Shown here: piece after piece, positions 1 to 5,221 of the stretch
Position numbering within the stretch: the stretch's first letter is position 1
Layout: every line of letters begins with the position of its first letter
Assembly (NCBI GenBank): GCA_002772495.1
Contig: PCSX01000036.1
Coordinates: 1-12,472, forward strand
DNA from: Candidatus Vogelbacteria bacterium CG22_combo_CG10-13_8_21_14_all_37_9
GTDB taxonomy: Bacteria; Patescibacteriota; Minisyncoccia; Phycocordibacterales; XYD1-FULL-46-19
Length of the DNA stretch: 12,472 nucleotides
Reading direction: 5' to 3'
Notes under the pieces: generated by a model
The model's input: only the letters and a program-made list of their open reading frames with translations
Database searches by the model: none
What the model was told of the DNA's origin: nothing
Position numbers and translations under genes: made by a program

Positions 1-1467
1 AAGGTAGAAGTAGCCGGTCCAGGTTTCATTAATTTTTATCTTAGTGATCAATATTTATTTTCTGAATTGGCGATTATTAAAAAAACTGACCCTTACGGTC
101 TTAATCAATCAAAACACGGTCAAAAAATTATTATTGAATATACTGATCCAAATCCCTTTAAGCTTTTTCACATTGGTCATTTGATGAGTAATACCATTGG
201 AGAATCAATCGCTCGACTTTTAGAATTTTCGGGAGCGGAAATTAAAAGAGCTTGTTATCAAGGTGATGTCGGCTTACATGTGGCTAAAACTATTTGGGGG
301 ATTAAACAAAATTTATCACAATTACCAACTGACAATGAGTCGCTAGTAAACAAAGTGGCTTTTTTGGGCCTAGCTTATTCGGCTGGCTCAAAAGCTTTTG
401 AATTGGCGACGACCGAAATTAAAGCAGAAATTTTAGCTTTAAACAAGAAAATTTATAATCGTTCGGATCAAGAAATAAATACGCTTTATGATTTAGGTAA
501 AAAATGGAGCCTAGAATATTTTGAGAGTATTTATCAGCGCTTGGGCACTAAATTTGATTTTTATTTTTTTGAAAGTAAGACTGGTGATTTTGGTCGTCAG
601 GTAGTTGAAAATCACCCTACGGTTTTTGTGAAAAGTGAGGGGGCAGTAGTTTATCAGGGTGAAGCCGAAGGTCTGCACACTCGAGTTTTTATCAATCAAG
701 AAGGTTTACCCACTTATGAAGCCAAAGAACTAGGTTTGGCAAAAATAAAATATGATCATTATCCTTACGATTTATCTTTAGTGGTGACAGGTAATGAAAT
801 CAGTGAATATTTTCGGGTTTTGTTATCTGCTTTGAAAAAAGTTTTTCCGGATTTAGCCCTTAAGACCAAACATTTGGCTCATGGGATGTTGCGTTTACCA
901 TCAGGAAAAATGTCTTCTCGAACTGGAGAAGTGATTAGCGCCGAAGATTTAGTAGTGGAAATTAAAAATAAATTAAGTGAAAAAATTGGTGAGAAAAAAA
1001 TTACCGTCAGTGATTTGGTTTTAGATCAAATAGCGGTTGGGGCGATTAAGTATTCAATTTTAAAACAAGATAGTCAAAAAGATTTAATTTTTGATTTAGA
1101 AAAAACTGTTTCTTTCGATGGTAACTCTGGTCCTTATTTGCAATACACTTATGCTCGAGCGATTAGTTTGCTCGCTAAAGCTAATTTCAGCTCGACTGAA
1201 TATCTAGTCCCTGATCAAGCTAGTCCTTTGGAACATTTACTGTATCGTTTTCCGGAAGTGGTAGAATATTCGGCCGAAAATTATGCCCCGCACCATCTCT
1301 GCACCTATCTCTATGAATTAGCGAGCACTTTTAACAATTTTTACAATCAAGACAAAATCATCGGTGCTCCTGATGAAGCTTATCGTTTAGCACTGACTTC
1401 GGCCAGCGCTCAAATTTTAAAAACCGGTTTAGGTTTATTGGGAATTATTAGCCCTGAAAAGATGTAA
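1..1467 (+). CDS. argS: Arginyl-tRNA synthetase, 5'-truncated by the window edge
   Basis: Class I aminoacyl-tRNA synthetase that attaches arginine to tRNA-Arg in the cytosol. The frame is open from base 1 and its first residues (VAGPGFINFYL, residues 4-14) match the end of the ArgRS-specific N-terminal domain, so the true start lies upstream. The TTG at 67 is internal. 488 residues are visible. The ATP-binding signature is HIGH (57-60), following a PNPFKLF stretch, and the KMSKS-equivalent is KMSSRTG (from 303), the usual ArgRS form. The C-terminal third has the DALR-type helical anticodon-binding domain, with SGPYLQYTYAR just before it and a hydrophobic end (LGLLGIISPEKM). It stops with TAA, directly followed by a large inverted repeat that may end its transcript. 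Identity is very secure; only the N-terminus is missing. Confidence 0.97.
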   Translation, partial: KVEVAGPGFINFYLSDQYLFSELAIIKKTDPYGLNQSKHGQKIIIEYTDPNPFKLFHIGHLMSNTIGESIARLLEFSGAEIKRACYQGDVGLHVAKTIWGIKQNLSQLPTDNESLVNKVAFLGLAYSAGSKAFELATTEIKAEILALNKKIYNRSDQEINTLYDLGKKWSLEYFESIYQRLGTKFDFYFFESKTGDFGRQVVENHPTVFVKSEGAVVYQGEAEGLHTRVFINQEGLPTYEAKELGLAKIKYDHYPYDLSLVVTGNEISEYFRVLLSALKKVFPDLALKTKHLAHGMLRLPSGKMSSRTGEVISAEDLVVEIKNKLSEKIGEKKITVSDLVLDQIAVGAIKYSILKQDSQKDLIFDLEKTVSFDGNSGPYLQYTYARAISLLAKANFSSTEYLVPDQASPLEHLLYRFPEVVEYSAENYAPHHLCTYLYELASTFNNFYNQDKIIGAPDEAYRLALTSASAQILKTGLGLLGIISPEKM

Positions 1468-1561: not shown

Positions 1562-1590
1562 TTGCGAGTGGTCTAAAAATAGGCTAAATT
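1562..1590 (+). promoter_or_regulatory. Candidate promoter of ileS giving a leaderless mRNA
   Basis: A -35-like TTGCGA (1562-1567), a 17-bp spacer and a -10-like TAAATT (1585-1590) lie just after the palindromic element. A start about 7 bases past the -10 would fall at 1597-1598, on the ileS ATG. Each box matches the sigma-70 consensus at 4 of 6 positions. The spacing is ideal and no ribosome binding site is present, but such boxes are easy to find in AT-rich DNA. Confidence 0.45.
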
Positions 1591-1597
1591 GAAACTT

Positions 1598-4500
1598 ATG
1601 GACGAAACTAAAAAATCACCTCAAGCCGAGCGAGAAGAAAAAATTTTAGAGTCTTGGCAAACTGAAAAAATTTTTGAACAAAGTTTAAATAAAGCTAACC
1701 CTAAAGGAGAGTTTGTTTTTTATGATGGGCCACCTTTTGCCACTGGTCTGCCTCACTATGGACATATTTTGGCTGGAACGATTAAGGATGTAATTCCGCG
1801 CTATAAAACAATGCAGGGCTATCATGTTCGACGACGTTGGGGTTGGGATTGTCATGGTTTACCGCTCGAAAATTTAGTGGAACAAGAACTTAAATTGGAA
1901 CACAAAAAAGATATTGAAGGATATGGTATTGATCGCTTTAATGAATACGCTAAAAAAAGTGTTTTACGTTTTGTTGATGACTGGAAGAAGATTATTCCGC
2001 GCCTTGGTCGTTTTGTCGATATGGAAGATGATTATCGGAGTTTAGATGCTTCTTATTCGGAAAGTGTTTGGTGGATTTTTAAAACTCTCTATGAGCGAGA
2101 TTTAATTTACGAAGGTTACAAATCAATGCATATTTGTCCTCGTTGTGAGACCACCTTGGCTAATTTTGAAGTTAATCAGGGCTACAAGGACGTGACGGAT
2201 ATATCCGTCTATGTTAAATTTAAAATTCACCCTGTGGAATATGACGCAAAAGGCGTCATAAAATCTGAAGGATTTTTATTCCACGGGGTAAAAAATGCAG
2301 ATCAAAAATTAAAAATAGAGGATAACACTTATCTCGTGGCTTGGACGACGACTCCTTGGACTTTGCCGGGTAATGTCGCTTTGGCGGTAAATAAAGAGAT
2401 TGACTATGTCAAATTAAAAATTAAAAATGAAAAATTAAAAGTTGAAAATCCAGCAGTCAAACCAGAAACTCCTAAAAACGAAATCTTGATTGTCGCTAAG
2501 GATCTTTTGGAGAAAGTTTTTAAAGATGAAAATTATGAAATTATAGAAGAATTTAAAGGCTCTGAATTAATCGGCTTAGCTTACGAGCCAGTCTTTGATT
2601 ATTACTTAAAAGATGAAATCTTAAAAAATCGGGAGCGGGGATGGAAGATATATGGTGCCGATTTTGTCAGTACTGAAGAGGGAACAGGGATAGTTCATAT
2701 CGCTCCAGCTTTTGGTGAAAATGATTTACTTTTAAGTCAGCAAGCTAATTTACCTTTTATCCAACATGTCAAAATGGATGGGACTTTTAAACCAGAAGTG
2801 ACAGATTTAGTTGGACAAGCAGTTAAACCAATTGAAAATCCTCAACAAGCTGATATCGAAATCATTAAATTGCTCGCGGTTAAGGGCTTACTATTGGCCA
2901 AAGAAAAAATCGTCCATTCCTACCCACATTGTTGGCGTTGTGAGACTCCACTCTTAAATTATGCTACTTCGTCTTGGTTTGTAAAAGTGACCGCTTTAAA
3001 AGATAAATTAATTAAAGCCAATCAAGAAATTAATTGGGTCCCCGATAATATTAAAGCTGGTCGTTTTGGAAAGTGGTTGGAAGGGTCACGAGATTGGGCT
3101 ATTTCTCGGAGTCGCTTTTGGGGCGCTCCGCTACCAGTCTGGCGTTGCCCTGATTGTCAAAAATTAAAGATTGTCGGTTCTTTGGAGGAATTGCAGTCGG
3201 ATCATCAAGGGTCTAAAAATAATTATCAAGTTATTCGTCACGGTGAAGCGCTTAGTAATTTGACTAATAAAATAAGTTTTGGCACTGAAGCTGAAGATGG
3301 CTTAACACCAGCTGGTGTCGAACAAGTTAAACAAGCCAGCCAAACTTTAAGCAAGCAAAAGATCGATCTGATTGTCAGCTCACCTTTTCGGCGAACTCGA
3401 GAAACGGCCGAGTTGATTGCTCAAACAATCGGCCTATCTTCTGAACAAACAATTTTCGATGAACGCTTACAAGAAATCAATCCTGGTGATTTGGATGGTC
3501 TGTCTTGGTCTGATTATCAGATCCAAGTTAAAACAAAACAAGCTAATGGTCGAGAATCCCTACCAACTATTCGGACTCGGGTTATGAGTTTATTGTTTGA
3601 TTTAGAACAACGTTATGAGGCAAAAAATATTTTAATCATTAGTCATGGTTTACCACTACGTTTATTATTAATCGCTTCAGCTGGAGTAGCTAATCGGGAT
3701 TTACGAACTAATACTAAGTGGTCTCTTTCTGCTTTGGCCAATGCTGAAATTAGAGCTTTAAATTTTAAACCTTATCCTCATAATCCTGATTTTGATTTGG
3801 ATTTTCATCGACCTTATATTGATGATATTAAATTAACTTGCTCTTGTGGCTCGGCGATGAATCGAGTAGCAGAAGTTTTCGACTGTTGGTTTGAATCTGG
3901 AGCCATGCCTTATGCCCAAGATCATTTTCCTTTTGGTAATAGTCGCCGTTTGATTGATCCGGACCAAAAAATTGGTTTTCCAGCTGATTTTATTGCCGAA
4001 GGTTTAGACCAAACCCGGGGTTGGTTTTATAGTCTCTTAGTTTTAGGAGTGGCTTTATTTGATCAGAGTCCTTATAAAAATGTCATTGTCAACGGCATGG
4101 TTTTGGCCGAAGACGGTCAAAAAATGTCTAAACGCCTTAAAAATTATCCTGACCCAATATTGATGGTTGATAAATATGGGGCTGACGCGCTTCGTTTTTA
4201 TTTAATGATTTCACCGGTCGTTCGCGGAGAAGATTTAAATTTAAGTGAAAAAGGGATTGGAGAAGTGGCTAGACGAGTTTTAGCTCGATTGGATAATGTT
4301 CTTACTTTCTTTTTGACTTATGGTGATTTGACTGAGACCTTAGTCAGCCCAGATTCTGACCAGATTTTAGATTCTTGGATTCTCGCTCGTTTAACTGAAC
4401 TTATTAATTTAGTTAGTCTTAATTTGGACCGTTATGAATTAGATAAATCAGCTCGAGCGATTGATGATTTTATCGATGATTTATCAAATTGGTATCTTCG

Positions 4501-5221
4501 CCGTTCTCGAGATCGTTTTCATAGTGAAGATTTAGCTGATCAAAAAAGGGCCAATAATACTTTGCGTTGGATTTTAATAGAATTAGCCAAAGTTTTAGCT
4601 CCCTTTACACCCTTTTTAGCCGAAAATATTTATCAACAATTAGGTCCTGATCATAAGTTAGCTAGTATTCATCTGGAAACTTGGCCGGAATCAAAAACTC
4701 TAAAGCCTTCACTTGAAGAAAGGAAAGACCTGATACCTTTAATGTCCGAATTACGACTTCTGGCTACTTTAGGTTTAGAGTTAAGAGCGAAGGCGGGGAT
4801 TAAAGTTCGTCAACCTTTAAATAAATTAAGTCTTCAGTCGGATCGTTTGAGCGGTCAAATGGAATTACTAAAACTTCTAAGTGAAGAGTTAAATGTTAAA
4901 ACAATTGAATTTGATAAAAATCTTTCGACGGTCGCCGAACTTGATTTAGTTATTAGTCCGGACTTGAAACAAGAAGGTTTGGCTCGAGATTTAATTCGTT
5001 TAATTCAAGAAGGTCGCAAACAAGCTGGACTAAGTCCTTTAGATTTAGCTAATCTAGATATTTATCTCACTCCCGAATTGGTGGTAGTTTTAACTAATTA
5101 TGAAACCGAGATCAAACGAGTAGCTAAATTGAAGCAAATAAAAATTCAAACTAGTCCTAACTCTGAATTAATTAAATTAGATCAGGCGGAGCTCGCTTTT
5201 CGTCTGGAACGGGCAAATTAA
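1598..5221 (+). CDS. ileS: Isoleucyl-tRNA synthetase with an inserted histidine-phosphatase domain
   Basis: Charges tRNA-Ile with isoleucine and edits misactivated valine. 1207 residues from ATG 1598; the in-frame TTG at 1589 is less likely. Landmarks: HYGH (53-56), WGWDCHGLPLE (about 82-92), CP1 editing-domain motif WTTTPWTLPGN (249-259), KMSKR (842-846), then the helical anticodon-binding domain and a C-terminal region. The CP1-distal core (FWGAPLPVW, VFDCWFESGAMPYAQ) is of the archaeal/eukaryotic-like type. Between the cysteine pairs CPDC (517-520) and CSC (748-750) sits about 180 residues of histidine phosphatase, which makes the protein unusually long. The CP1 region also carries extra residues encoded by a nested palindrome (2229-2289) and an A/T repeat (2411-2440). 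There is no Shine-Dalgarno. The stop overlaps the recO ATG by one base (TAATG), suggesting translational coupling. Confidence 0.97.
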   Translation: MDETKKSPQAEREEKILESWQTEKIFEQSLNKANPKGEFVFYDGPPFATGLPHYGHILAGTIKDVIPRYKTMQGYHVRRRWGWDCHGLPLENLVEQELKLEHKKDIEGYGIDRFNEYAKKSVLRFVDDWKKIIPRLGRFVDMEDDYRSLDASYSESVWWIFKTLYERDLIYEGYKSMHICPRCETTLANFEVNQGYKDVTDISVYVKFKIHPVEYDAKGVIKSEGFLFHGVKNADQKLKIEDNTYLVAWTTTPWTLPGNVALAVNKEIDYVKLKIKNEKLKVENPAVKPETPKNEILIVAKDLLEKVFKDENYEIIEEFKGSELIGLAYEPVFDYYLKDEILKNRERGWKIYGADFVSTEEGTGIVHIAPAFGENDLLLSQQANLPFIQHVKMDGTFKPEVTDLVGQAVKPIENPQQADIEIIKLLAVKGLLLAKEKIVHSYPHCWRCETPLLNYATSSWFVKVTALKDKLIKANQEINWVPDNIKAGRFGKWLEGSRDWAISRSRFWGAPLPVWRCPDCQKLKIVGSLEELQSDHQGSKNNYQVIRHGEALSNLTNKISFGTEAEDGLTPAGVEQVKQASQTLSKQKIDLIVSSPFRRTRETAELIAQTIGLSSEQTIFDERLQEINPGDLDGLSWSDYQIQVKTKQANGRESLPTIRTRVMSLLFDLEQRYEAKNILIISHGLPLRLLLIASAGVANRDLRTNTKWSLSALANAEIRALNFKPYPHNPDFDLDFHRPYIDDIKLTCSCGSAMNRVAEVFDCWFESGAMPYAQDHFPFGNSRRLIDPDQKIGFPADFIAEGLDQTRGWFYSLLVLGVALFDQSPYKNVIVNGMVLAEDGQKMSKRLKNYPDPILMVDKYGADALRFYLMISPVVRGEDLNLSEKGIGEVARRVLARLDNVLTFFLTYGDLTETLVSPDSDQILDSWILARLTELINLVSLNLDRYELDKSARAIDDFIDDLSNWYLRRSRDRFHSEDLADQKRANNTLRWILIELAKVLAPFTPFLAENIYQQLGPDHKLASIHLETWPESKTLKPSLEERKDLIPLMSELRLLATLGLELRAKAGIKVRQPLNKLSLQSDRLSGQMELLKLLSEELNVKTIEFDKNLSTVAELDLVISPDLKQEGLARDLIRLIQEGRKQAGLSPLDLANLDIYLTPELVVVLTNYETEIKRVAKLKQIKIQTSPNSELIKLDQAELAFRLERAN
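2229..2289. repeat. 61-nt nested palindrome inside the ileS reading frame
   Basis: The outer 12-bp stem pairs 2229-2240 (accctgtggaat) with 2278-2289 (attccacggggt), including one T-G pair. It encloses two adjacent perfect hairpins: atgacgc 2241-2247 with gcgtcat 2253-2259 (loop aaaag), and aaaatc 2260-2265 with gatttt 2271-2276 (loop tgaag). Only T2277 and the two 5-nt loops are unpaired. It encodes about residues 211-231 of IleRS (around HPVEYDAKGVIKSEG), between VYVKF and WTTTPWTLPGN, where other IleRS are usually shorter. Likely an in-frame palindromic insertion; origin unknown. Confidence 0.75.
2411..2440 (+). repeat. A/T-rich short tandem-like repeat inside ileS
   Basis: An A/T tract built on the unit AAATTAA, encoding the lysine-rich stretch KLKIKNEKLK in the CP1 domain. 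Its first 19 bases (2411-2429) recur exactly, in inverse orientation, at 11846-11864 between rpsF and ssb, and a shorter version occurs at 2304-2316. This suggests a dispersed low-complexity repeat family, though base composition alone could explain part of the match. Confidence 0.5.
3221..3769 (+). other. Histidine phosphatase (PGM-like) domain inserted within IleRS
   Basis: Sub-region of ileS, about residues 542-724. It shows the histidine phosphatase signature in order: VIRHGE with the phospho-acceptor His548 and Arg547, SSPFRRTRETAE with the phosphate-binding arginine near 599, the acidic residue in RLQEINPGDLDG near 626, and IISHGLPLR with the second catalytic His683. All core catalytic positions are therefore present, so activity is plausible. 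It is flanked by typical IleRS sequence (GSLEEL before, DFHRPYIDDIKL after), so the insertion lies within one continuous open frame. Substrate unknown. Confidence 0.93.

Follow-up and report, generated by a model that had tools for sequence, protein, structure and literature searches.

A histidine phosphatase domain embedded in the catalytic core of isoleucyl-tRNA synthetase in Patescibacteria

Results

A phosphatase domain inside isoleucyl-tRNA synthetase

The window analysed here, a stretch of 12,472 nucleotides on contig PCSX01000036.1 of Candidatus Vogelbacteria bacterium CG22_combo_CG10-13_8_21_14_all_37_9, contains a single open frame at 1589-5221 on the forward strand that encodes an isoleucyl-tRNA synthetase (IleRS) with an embedded branch-1 histidine phosphatase domain (HP; PF00300). 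The database copy of the protein (P0001; numbers with G, L and P denote the genomes, loci and database proteins compared) has 1207 residues. With 875.9 bits against a cut-off of 621.4 for NCBIfam model TIGR00392 (ileS), the protein is a member of the IleRS family; the HxGH and KMSKS synthetase motifs were both found, together with a DUF5915 match. In Pfam, tRNA-synt_1 is split into two stretches flanking His_Phos_1 (PF00300, residues 548-707), and the score of the latter (E = 1.6e-28; 100.1 bits against a cut-off of 21.7) is too high for a chance match.

The edges of the insert were set by comparison with the insert-free IleRS of three related genomes (G015, G036 and G043), in which a short linker occupies the insertion place. 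There the IleRS of G013 reads LRRHTKK, 191 residues and LPHNDNFEIDLHRP, versus LKSHLAP, 3 residues and LPTNSEGEIDLHRP in its genus mate G015. An initial annotation of the window had described the same architecture; the motifs that it named all lie where it had placed them, in a single frame, and its span for the insert, 3221-3769, agrees within about 25 bases with the edges in Table 1. The CPRC and CWRC pairs are termed zinc site 1 here.

Conservation was counted in two sets. The first is an alignment of 121 rows, comprising the window protein and the best 120 of 255 database matches, the window's own copy among them; it was selected by the insert itself, and some rows are fragments. The second consists of the 55 relatives with a whole insert among 61 genomes, retrieved with the whole IleRS as query and with no selection for the insert.

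Table 1. Coordinates of argS, ileS and the motifs and domains of the IleRS in the window
Feature	Position	Strand	Basis or conservation
argS, immediately upstream of ileS; 5' end lies beyond the window	1..1467	+	PF00750, PF05746
ileS, IleRS with embedded HP	1598..5221	+	likely start ATG 1598, TTG 1589 possible; 1207 residues
HIGH motif (HYGH)	1754..1765	+	motif search; relatives compared
CPRC, zinc site 1, first half	2135..2146	+	C183 in 113/121 rows, 6 gaps
CWRC, zinc site 1, second half	2930..2941	+	C448 in 118/121 rows, 3 gaps
FWGAPLPVW, synthetase core immediately 5' of the insertion site	3116..3142	+	motif search
CPDC, knuckle 2, first cysteine pair	3146..3157	+	C520 in 49/121 rows
Inserted HP domain, residues 539-735	3203..3793, core 3212-3772	+	PF00300 and comparison with insert-free IleRS
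RHGE with R550 and H551	3236..3247	+	R and H in 121/121 rows, 55/55 relatives
N557, Asn after RHG	3257..3259	+	120/121 rows, 54/55 relatives
SSPFRRTRETAE with S598, R602 and T606	3377..3412	+	alignment of rows and relatives
E629, catalytic acid position	3473..3475	+	121/121 rows, 55/55 relatives
ISHG with second catalytic His, H686	3638..3649	+	121/121 rows, 55/55 relatives
CSC, knuckle 2, second cysteine pair	3839..3847	+	motif search; not general
VFDCWFESG, motif	3875..3901	+	motif search
KMSKR (KMSKS motif)	4121..4135	+	motif search
Anticodon-binding domain PF08264, residues 928-1077	4370..4819	+	Pfam

Downstream of ileS, Pfam places recO, a DUF11 protein, an AI-2E transporter, metG, tatD, an S6-like protein and ssb in the window.

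The active site is conserved in a divergent domain

The catalytic set of the HP superfamily, that is the RHG nucleophile, a second arginine, the acid and a second histidine, is present in the window as R550/H551, R602, E629 and H686, to which we take these roles to fall. The phosphatase signature, which the initial annotation had called complete, is indeed so: these five residues, and with them S598, are identical in all 121 rows and all 55 relatives. T606 is likewise found in every row and in 51 of the 55 relatives, the others having Ser (three) or Ala (one). At the same time, the HP domain is more divergent than its host, with a mean pairwise difference of 0.64 versus 0.49 (49 of the 55 IleRS, those with frames of more than 1000 residues).

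This pattern bears on the idea that the insert is a structural spacer whose fold aids tRNA binding or stability, catalysis being irrelevant. Domain inserts in synthetases can bind tRNA, and four of the 45 copies counted across the phylum have lost catalytic residues. Nevertheless, all 55 relatives agree at the catalytic positions although the domain diverges more than its host, and free forms of the domain exist; a mere spacer is improbable.

It had further been proposed that the insert projects from a zinc knuckle (knuckle 2). In the window protein the insert does lie between the CPDC and CSC pairs. However, the four knuckle cysteines are complete in only 39 of the 55 insert-bearing relatives and incomplete in the other 16, so the knuckle is not a required base of the insert, and an obligatory role of this kind is ruled out.

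The insert resembles PhoE-type phosphatases and lacks mutase residues

In a profile search against solved structures, the nearest matches of the insert were 1ebb/1h2e, which we take to be PhoE, with 101 bits, phosphoserine phosphatase 1 (4ij5) with 95 and CobC (6nru) with 82. Among the best 25 of 31 matching NCBIfam models, no phosphatase equivalog exceeded its cut-off for the window: the scores were 72.2 bits (cut-off 162.9) for CobC, 51.7 (350) for PspA, 45.9 (261) for GpmB, 74.1 (225) for archaeal dPGM and 74.7 (326) for RNase H/acid phosphatase. The models therefore name no substrate.

An alternative reading is a glycolytic phosphoglycerate mutase housed in IleRS. The window genome (G000, 93.6% complete) has an enolase, and neither iPGM nor PF01676 nor any PF00300 besides the IleRS copy was found in it, so that on gene content alone a mutase role is conceivable there; moreover, short mutases exist (1fzt, 211 residues). 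The substrate residues tell otherwise. We take the tyrosine of ERxYG (column 632), a lysine and a pair of arginines to contact the substrate in phosphoglycerate mutases; the tyrosine is present in none of the 121 rows and in one of the 55 relatives, and an arginine pair in the loop in four of the 121 rows, so that by these residues the insert is not a cofactor-dependent mutase. Three free copies of the domain (L036, which adjoins enolase, L079 and L085) do show ERNYG or ERDYG with the arginine pair further on. The phylogenetic profile also speaks against glycolysis, as enolase is missing in 23 of the 61 genomes, 19 of which have the whole insert, and genomes with iPGM carry the insert too. With both residues and profile disfavouring it, a mutase role is very unlikely.

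The fusion is common in the order and recurs across the phylum

With the insert region as query, 255 database proteins were found, and all of the best 120 carry both PF00133 and PF00300; other proteins with both domains, which the initial annotation had proposed to look for, are thus many. Where a source organism is named, it is a member of the Patescibacteria or a plain 'bacterium', and it is on account of these names that we call the host group Patescibacteria. From the window's own genome and 60 relatives, IleRS was recovered in 60 of 61 cases. The insert is whole in 55 of these 61 genomes, half present in one (G031, at a contig end), absent in three and not visible in two, namely G004, in which only the part of IleRS behind the insert can be seen, and G052, in which the whole-IleRS query recovered no IleRS.

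Across 379 genomes sampled from the phylum, an HP lies in a frame of 1122-1228 residues in 16 of the 17 genomes of the same order (own included) and in 9 of 15 other genomes of the same class, counts that rest on frame length, most of these frames being untyped. At least 41 of the remaining 347 genomes have an HP in a frame of at least 544 residues. The architecture, whose occurrence in other Patescibacteria the initial annotation had left open, is therefore widespread in the order of the window and also occurs in other parts of the phylum. An assembly or binning chimera is refuted by independent assemblies: in 55 of the 61 genomes the insert is whole and lies in a single frame; the 255 database proteins point the same way, nothing was found in its favour, and we consider its probability negligible.

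Valyl-tRNA synthetases, further sites and multiple copies

Valyl-tRNA synthetase (ValRS) is a second host. Across the 61 genomes, all PF00300 frames of more than 400 residues are IleRS, except two ValRS; in the ValRS of G049 and G026 (L062 and L063), the HP follows WYGHRVPVW and WFGHRIPVW, respectively, which is the homologous position. A search with the HP region of ValRS yielded 22 proteins, 20 of ValRS type as judged from Pfam content and names. Among the matches listed in the phylum sample, 34 of 70 large HP frames were typed by the top NCBIfam model and by BLAST with an IleRS and a ValRS as references. Twenty-two are IleRS and 12 ValRS, and no other synthetase was met; the top model lies above its cut-off in 32 of the 34, the exceptions being L128, a split frame, and L213, cut by a contig end. 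In L128, ileS of G241 is found as two overlapping frames (295 and 863 residues) with the HP in the second.

Several hosts carry more than one copy. Two HP domains occur in the IleRS of L119-L121 and L227-L230 and in the ValRS of L118, and the IleRS of L116 has three, the third at a second insertion site. This second site, at the boundary of the catalytic and anticodon domains (about residues 916-921 of the window protein), is used in L116, L117 and L122. A truncated metagenome ValRS (P0150) has four copies, one at a separate upstream site. In another ValRS (L223:996-4418, reverse strand), the HP at residues 540-703 seems to be shifted downstream by about 30 profile positions relative to other ValRS, perhaps marking another insertion site. 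Some HP-bearing synthetases hold additional domains: GNAT in L117:1638-5990 (reverse strand), HAD and a serine hydrolase in L126:327-4157 (forward strand) and a serine hydrolase in L214:195-4037 (forward strand).

Counted over domains of more than 60 bits in frames of more than 500 residues, the R, H, R, E and H of the active site are kept in 41 of the 45 HP domains of the 34 typed IleRS and ValRS frames. They are also kept in 22 of 23 further ValRS domains.

Unfused phosphatase genes beside ileS and outside the phylum

In the window the order is argS-ileS(HP). Two genomes, G404 and G330, instead have argS, a free HP and, directly after it, an insert-free ileS, and these free HPs sit in the same part of the HP tree as the insert (support 90-93). 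In a third, G387, the order is argS, a small open reading frame (ORF), HP, an HD_4 gene (PF13328) and ileS; this HD_4 gene, at L246:3426-5048 between the free HP and ileS, we assume to be kin of the small alarmone hydrolases. The tie of HP to IleRS that the fusion had suggested thus extends beyond it, to argS-HP-ileS arrangements in three insert-free genomes and to the shared presence of HP in IleRS and ValRS. Free HPs of another clade were seen near synthetase genes of class II D/K/N type (L234:2434-5508, reverse strand) and of W/Y type (L233:1030-2983, reverse strand).

Outside the phylum, the nearest free subfamily (A3) occurs in Halomonas and other Gammaproteobacteria, Spirochaetes, Planctomycetes and others. 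Of 140 relatives, 80 were kept in a search on genome contigs. A PhnD-like gene lies within 3.5 kb in 42 of these 80 loci and any PhnC/D/E-like gene in 49, the latter count being looser because PhnC is a common ABC ATPase; an alkaline phosphatase is found in three. Many of the 80 loci are from Halomonas and are therefore not independent. No HP inside an IleRS or ValRS frame was seen in the 80 loci, in a search that was aimed at the free subfamily and not at the fusion. Free kin beside phosphonate-type ABC transporter genes include L138, L141, L147 and L162 and others, many of them gammaproteobacterial. We infer that the ancestral substrate was probably a phosphomonoester.

Inserts and hosts appear to have partly separate histories

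Trees were of a quick kind, with supports from the Shimodaira-Hasegawa-like approximate likelihood ratio test (SH-aLRT) only. The host tree, built without the insert columns, comprises 52 of the 60 IleRS (those with more than 700 host columns). In it, the 12 IleRS with an altered HIGH motif (GxHH/AxHH) form one clade with a support of 100. The IleRS of G006 and G019 align as HYGS and that of G020 as HHGT at this motif, lacking the last histidine. One report (PMC10485003) ties A/GxHH to mupirocin hyper-resistance in IleRS2. On the host tree, presence and absence of the insert require three changes, with the absences scattered; since the sisters of G015 and G036 (G013 and G027, respectively; support 100) both carry the insert, we read these changes as losses.

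The main HP tree was made from 107 picked domains, which include the inserts of 43 of the 55 relatives, chosen copies from the phylum loci, 8 further ValRS domains and 22 free domains; from the other HP tree, free domains covering fewer than 140 profile positions were dropped. The main tree unites the insert of G028, whose core has the altered motif, with that of G045 (98), and the insert of G048, also of altered motif, with those of G018, G040 and G044 (96). The same two groupings recur in the other tree (94 and 100). HP distances, which are near saturation, show no split by core type (0.66 and 0.64 within, 0.65 between), whereas host distances do (0.42 and 0.46 within, 0.55 between; 49 rows each). 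Because HP clades cross the altered-motif divide, the data suggest that inserts were exchanged or recombined between IleRS core types. The pairing of G013 and G006 in the HP tree (95) is a weaker case for exchange, as the core of G006 adjoins the altered-motif clade. Full congruence of insert and host was not found; a weak correlation remains (Mantel r 0.24, a value reached in 7 of 2000 permutations; 49 rows).

A single origin of all IleRS inserts was rejected, with p-AU 0.019 in the approximately unbiased test for 66 IleRS HP domains constrained to one clade. In the other HP tree, 23 ValRS domains form one clade (97). More than one capture of HP is indicated by these quick trees.

Discussion

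We put at roughly 0.55 the probability that the insert is an active phosphomonoesterase, similar to PhoE, phosphoserine phosphatase 1 or CobC and not a mutase, that serves the charging of isoleucine and valine. We favour this function because the catalytic residues are kept, because IleRS and ValRS are the only hosts among the synthetases examined, and because the domain recurs at several sites and in several copies, as a neighbouring gene and on both IleRS core types. From its loop in the catalytic domain of IleRS, the insert would hydrolyse a phosphomonoester or a terminal phosphate: H551 would take the phosphate, R550, R602 and H686 would hold it, and E629 would act as the acid. Hydrolysis by way of a histidine nucleophile is the usual route in the HP superfamily. 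The domain may thereby clear a phosphorylated molecule that slows the charging of tRNA-Ile (and tRNA-Val), for example, a nucleotide-like inhibitor that bears a phosphate or a tRNA whose 3' end is phosphorylated or pyrophosphorylated, and tethering to the synthetase would raise the local concentration of the phosphatase. Candidates named by the initial annotation are a phosphorylated small molecule and a product of aminoacylation. Both its activity and its service to the synthetase we infer from comparisons of sequence.

A number of observations weigh against such a function. Catalytic residues are altered in 4 of the 45 phylum copies, namely copy 2 of L116 (E to D), L127 (E to D and H to S), L130 (E to S) and L226 (E to D), and in one of the 23 further ValRS domains (P0168, E to A). 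The IleRS of G015, G036 and G043 have 3-14 residues in place of the insert; G015 and G036 have free PF00300 genes of other HP-tree clades than the insert, and no PF00300 was found anywhere in the genome of G043, so that the function is dispensable. The arrangement argS-HP-ileS is known from three genomes of one class, which does not amount to a statistical test, and one of its free HPs, that of G387, branches elsewhere in the HP tree than the insert. G234 and G429 have their free HP and the insert-free ileS on different contigs. As to repeated capture, 19 ValRS domains as a single clade are not rejected (p-AU 0.504), and most deep branchings in the HP trees are weakly supported. Beside HP, some IleRS and ValRS also carry GNAT, HAD or serine-hydrolase domains, and HP is C-terminally fused to a non-synthetase of 462 residues in L129:1773-3158 (reverse strand). 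The L129 protein is a membrane protein, DedA-like as judged by eye, and frames of about its length with an HP match occur in three more genomes of family f102.

The main rival explanation is that IleRS and ValRS offer a permissive loop on which the phosphatase rides as a passenger, performing general phosphate salvage that has nothing to do with charging, with the synthetase as a mere carrier in a small genome. It would account for the GNAT, HAD and serine-hydrolase domains, for the PhnD-like genes (42 of 80) and alkaline phosphatases (3 of 80) beside the free kin outside the phylum, for the embedded domain being the only PF00300 of the window genome and for an insert dispensable enough to be missing in three scattered genomes. 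Less easily does it explain why only IleRS and ValRS, among the synthetases examined, carry HP, why a free HP adjoins ileS in three genomes and why the insert is found on both IleRS core types. We regard a passenger as possible, on a tentative footing.

Two further proposals concern what the phosphatase might act on. HipA-type kinases phosphorylate synthetases in other bacteria, and the domain could reverse such an attack on the synthetase itself; however, HipA_C (PF07804) was found in none of the 61 genomes as opposed to 4 of 14 controls, in a search that took in no other kinases, and this option appears remote. Second, the domain may be a built-in repair or immunity device that strips a phosphate or pyrophosphate off nucleotide-like inhibitors or off the 3' ends of tRNA-Ile and tRNA-Val, the GNAT, HAD and serine-hydrolase domains being further detoxification modules. 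The 3'-end marks would then come from toxic small alarmone synthetases. According to PMC11559606, FaRel2, a toxin, pyrophosphorylates selected tRNAs, a mark that a small alarmone hydrolase takes off; the same paper counts against repair in that it finds tRNA-Val to be a very poor substrate of FaRel2. Small RelA_SpoT ORFs number three in the 61 genomes, and two of them adjoin a free HP gene, in G026 (L241:1794-2255 with 2334-2969) and G032 (L243:3145-3600 with 2443-3111), possibly as a two-gene module. The HD_4 gene that separates HP from ileS in G387 is a further lead for this reading. The insert persists in 10 genomes without a RelA_SpoT domain, which also speaks against repair, and we find this specific role doubtful. 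As a general substrate, ppGpp is disfavoured, since all 10 of these genomes (of 61) have an insert that keeps R, H, R, E and H.

Returning to a phosphatase that serves charging, a catalytically intact HP lies in the IleRS core across an order; HP also occurs in ValRS and in other parts of the phylum, and a few genomes devoid of the fusion have it as a separate gene close by. This pattern points strongly to an undescribed reaction that accompanies the charging of isoleucine and valine. The protein, its nucleophile H551 and natural insert-free sister enzymes (G015 next to G013, G036 next to G027) offer well-defined starting points for finding the reaction. Among the papers listed by literature searches, no title or opening of an abstract describes the fusion. 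Already known are added synthetase domains as a kind and an NCBI model for an IleRS-GNAT fusion, and databases contain such sequences with both domains annotated.

Comparison with known systems

With branch 1 of the HP superfamily, as represented by 1ebb/1h2e, 4ij5 and 6nru, the insert shares the catalytic set and differs in being embedded in a synthetase core. The best match of the window IleRS in the Protein Data Bank, 8c8u, shares HxGH, KMSKS, the anticodon domain and DUF5915; we assume both to be related to the eukaryote-like type 2. Compared with IleRS of the 8c8u type, the window protein has about 197 extra residues between core segments. Two known fusions come close. NF040702 (ileS_w_GNAT) likewise joins a catalytic enzyme domain to IleRS, the domain being another one, and the window protein, at 329.1 bits against a cut-off of 1999, is thus not ileS_w_GNAT. 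PRK07238, an RNase H/acid phosphatase for which the window scores 74.7 bits against 326, fuses HP to a nucleic-acid enzyme; there HP makes up the latter half of a 378-position profile (172-359), whereas in the window it is internal.

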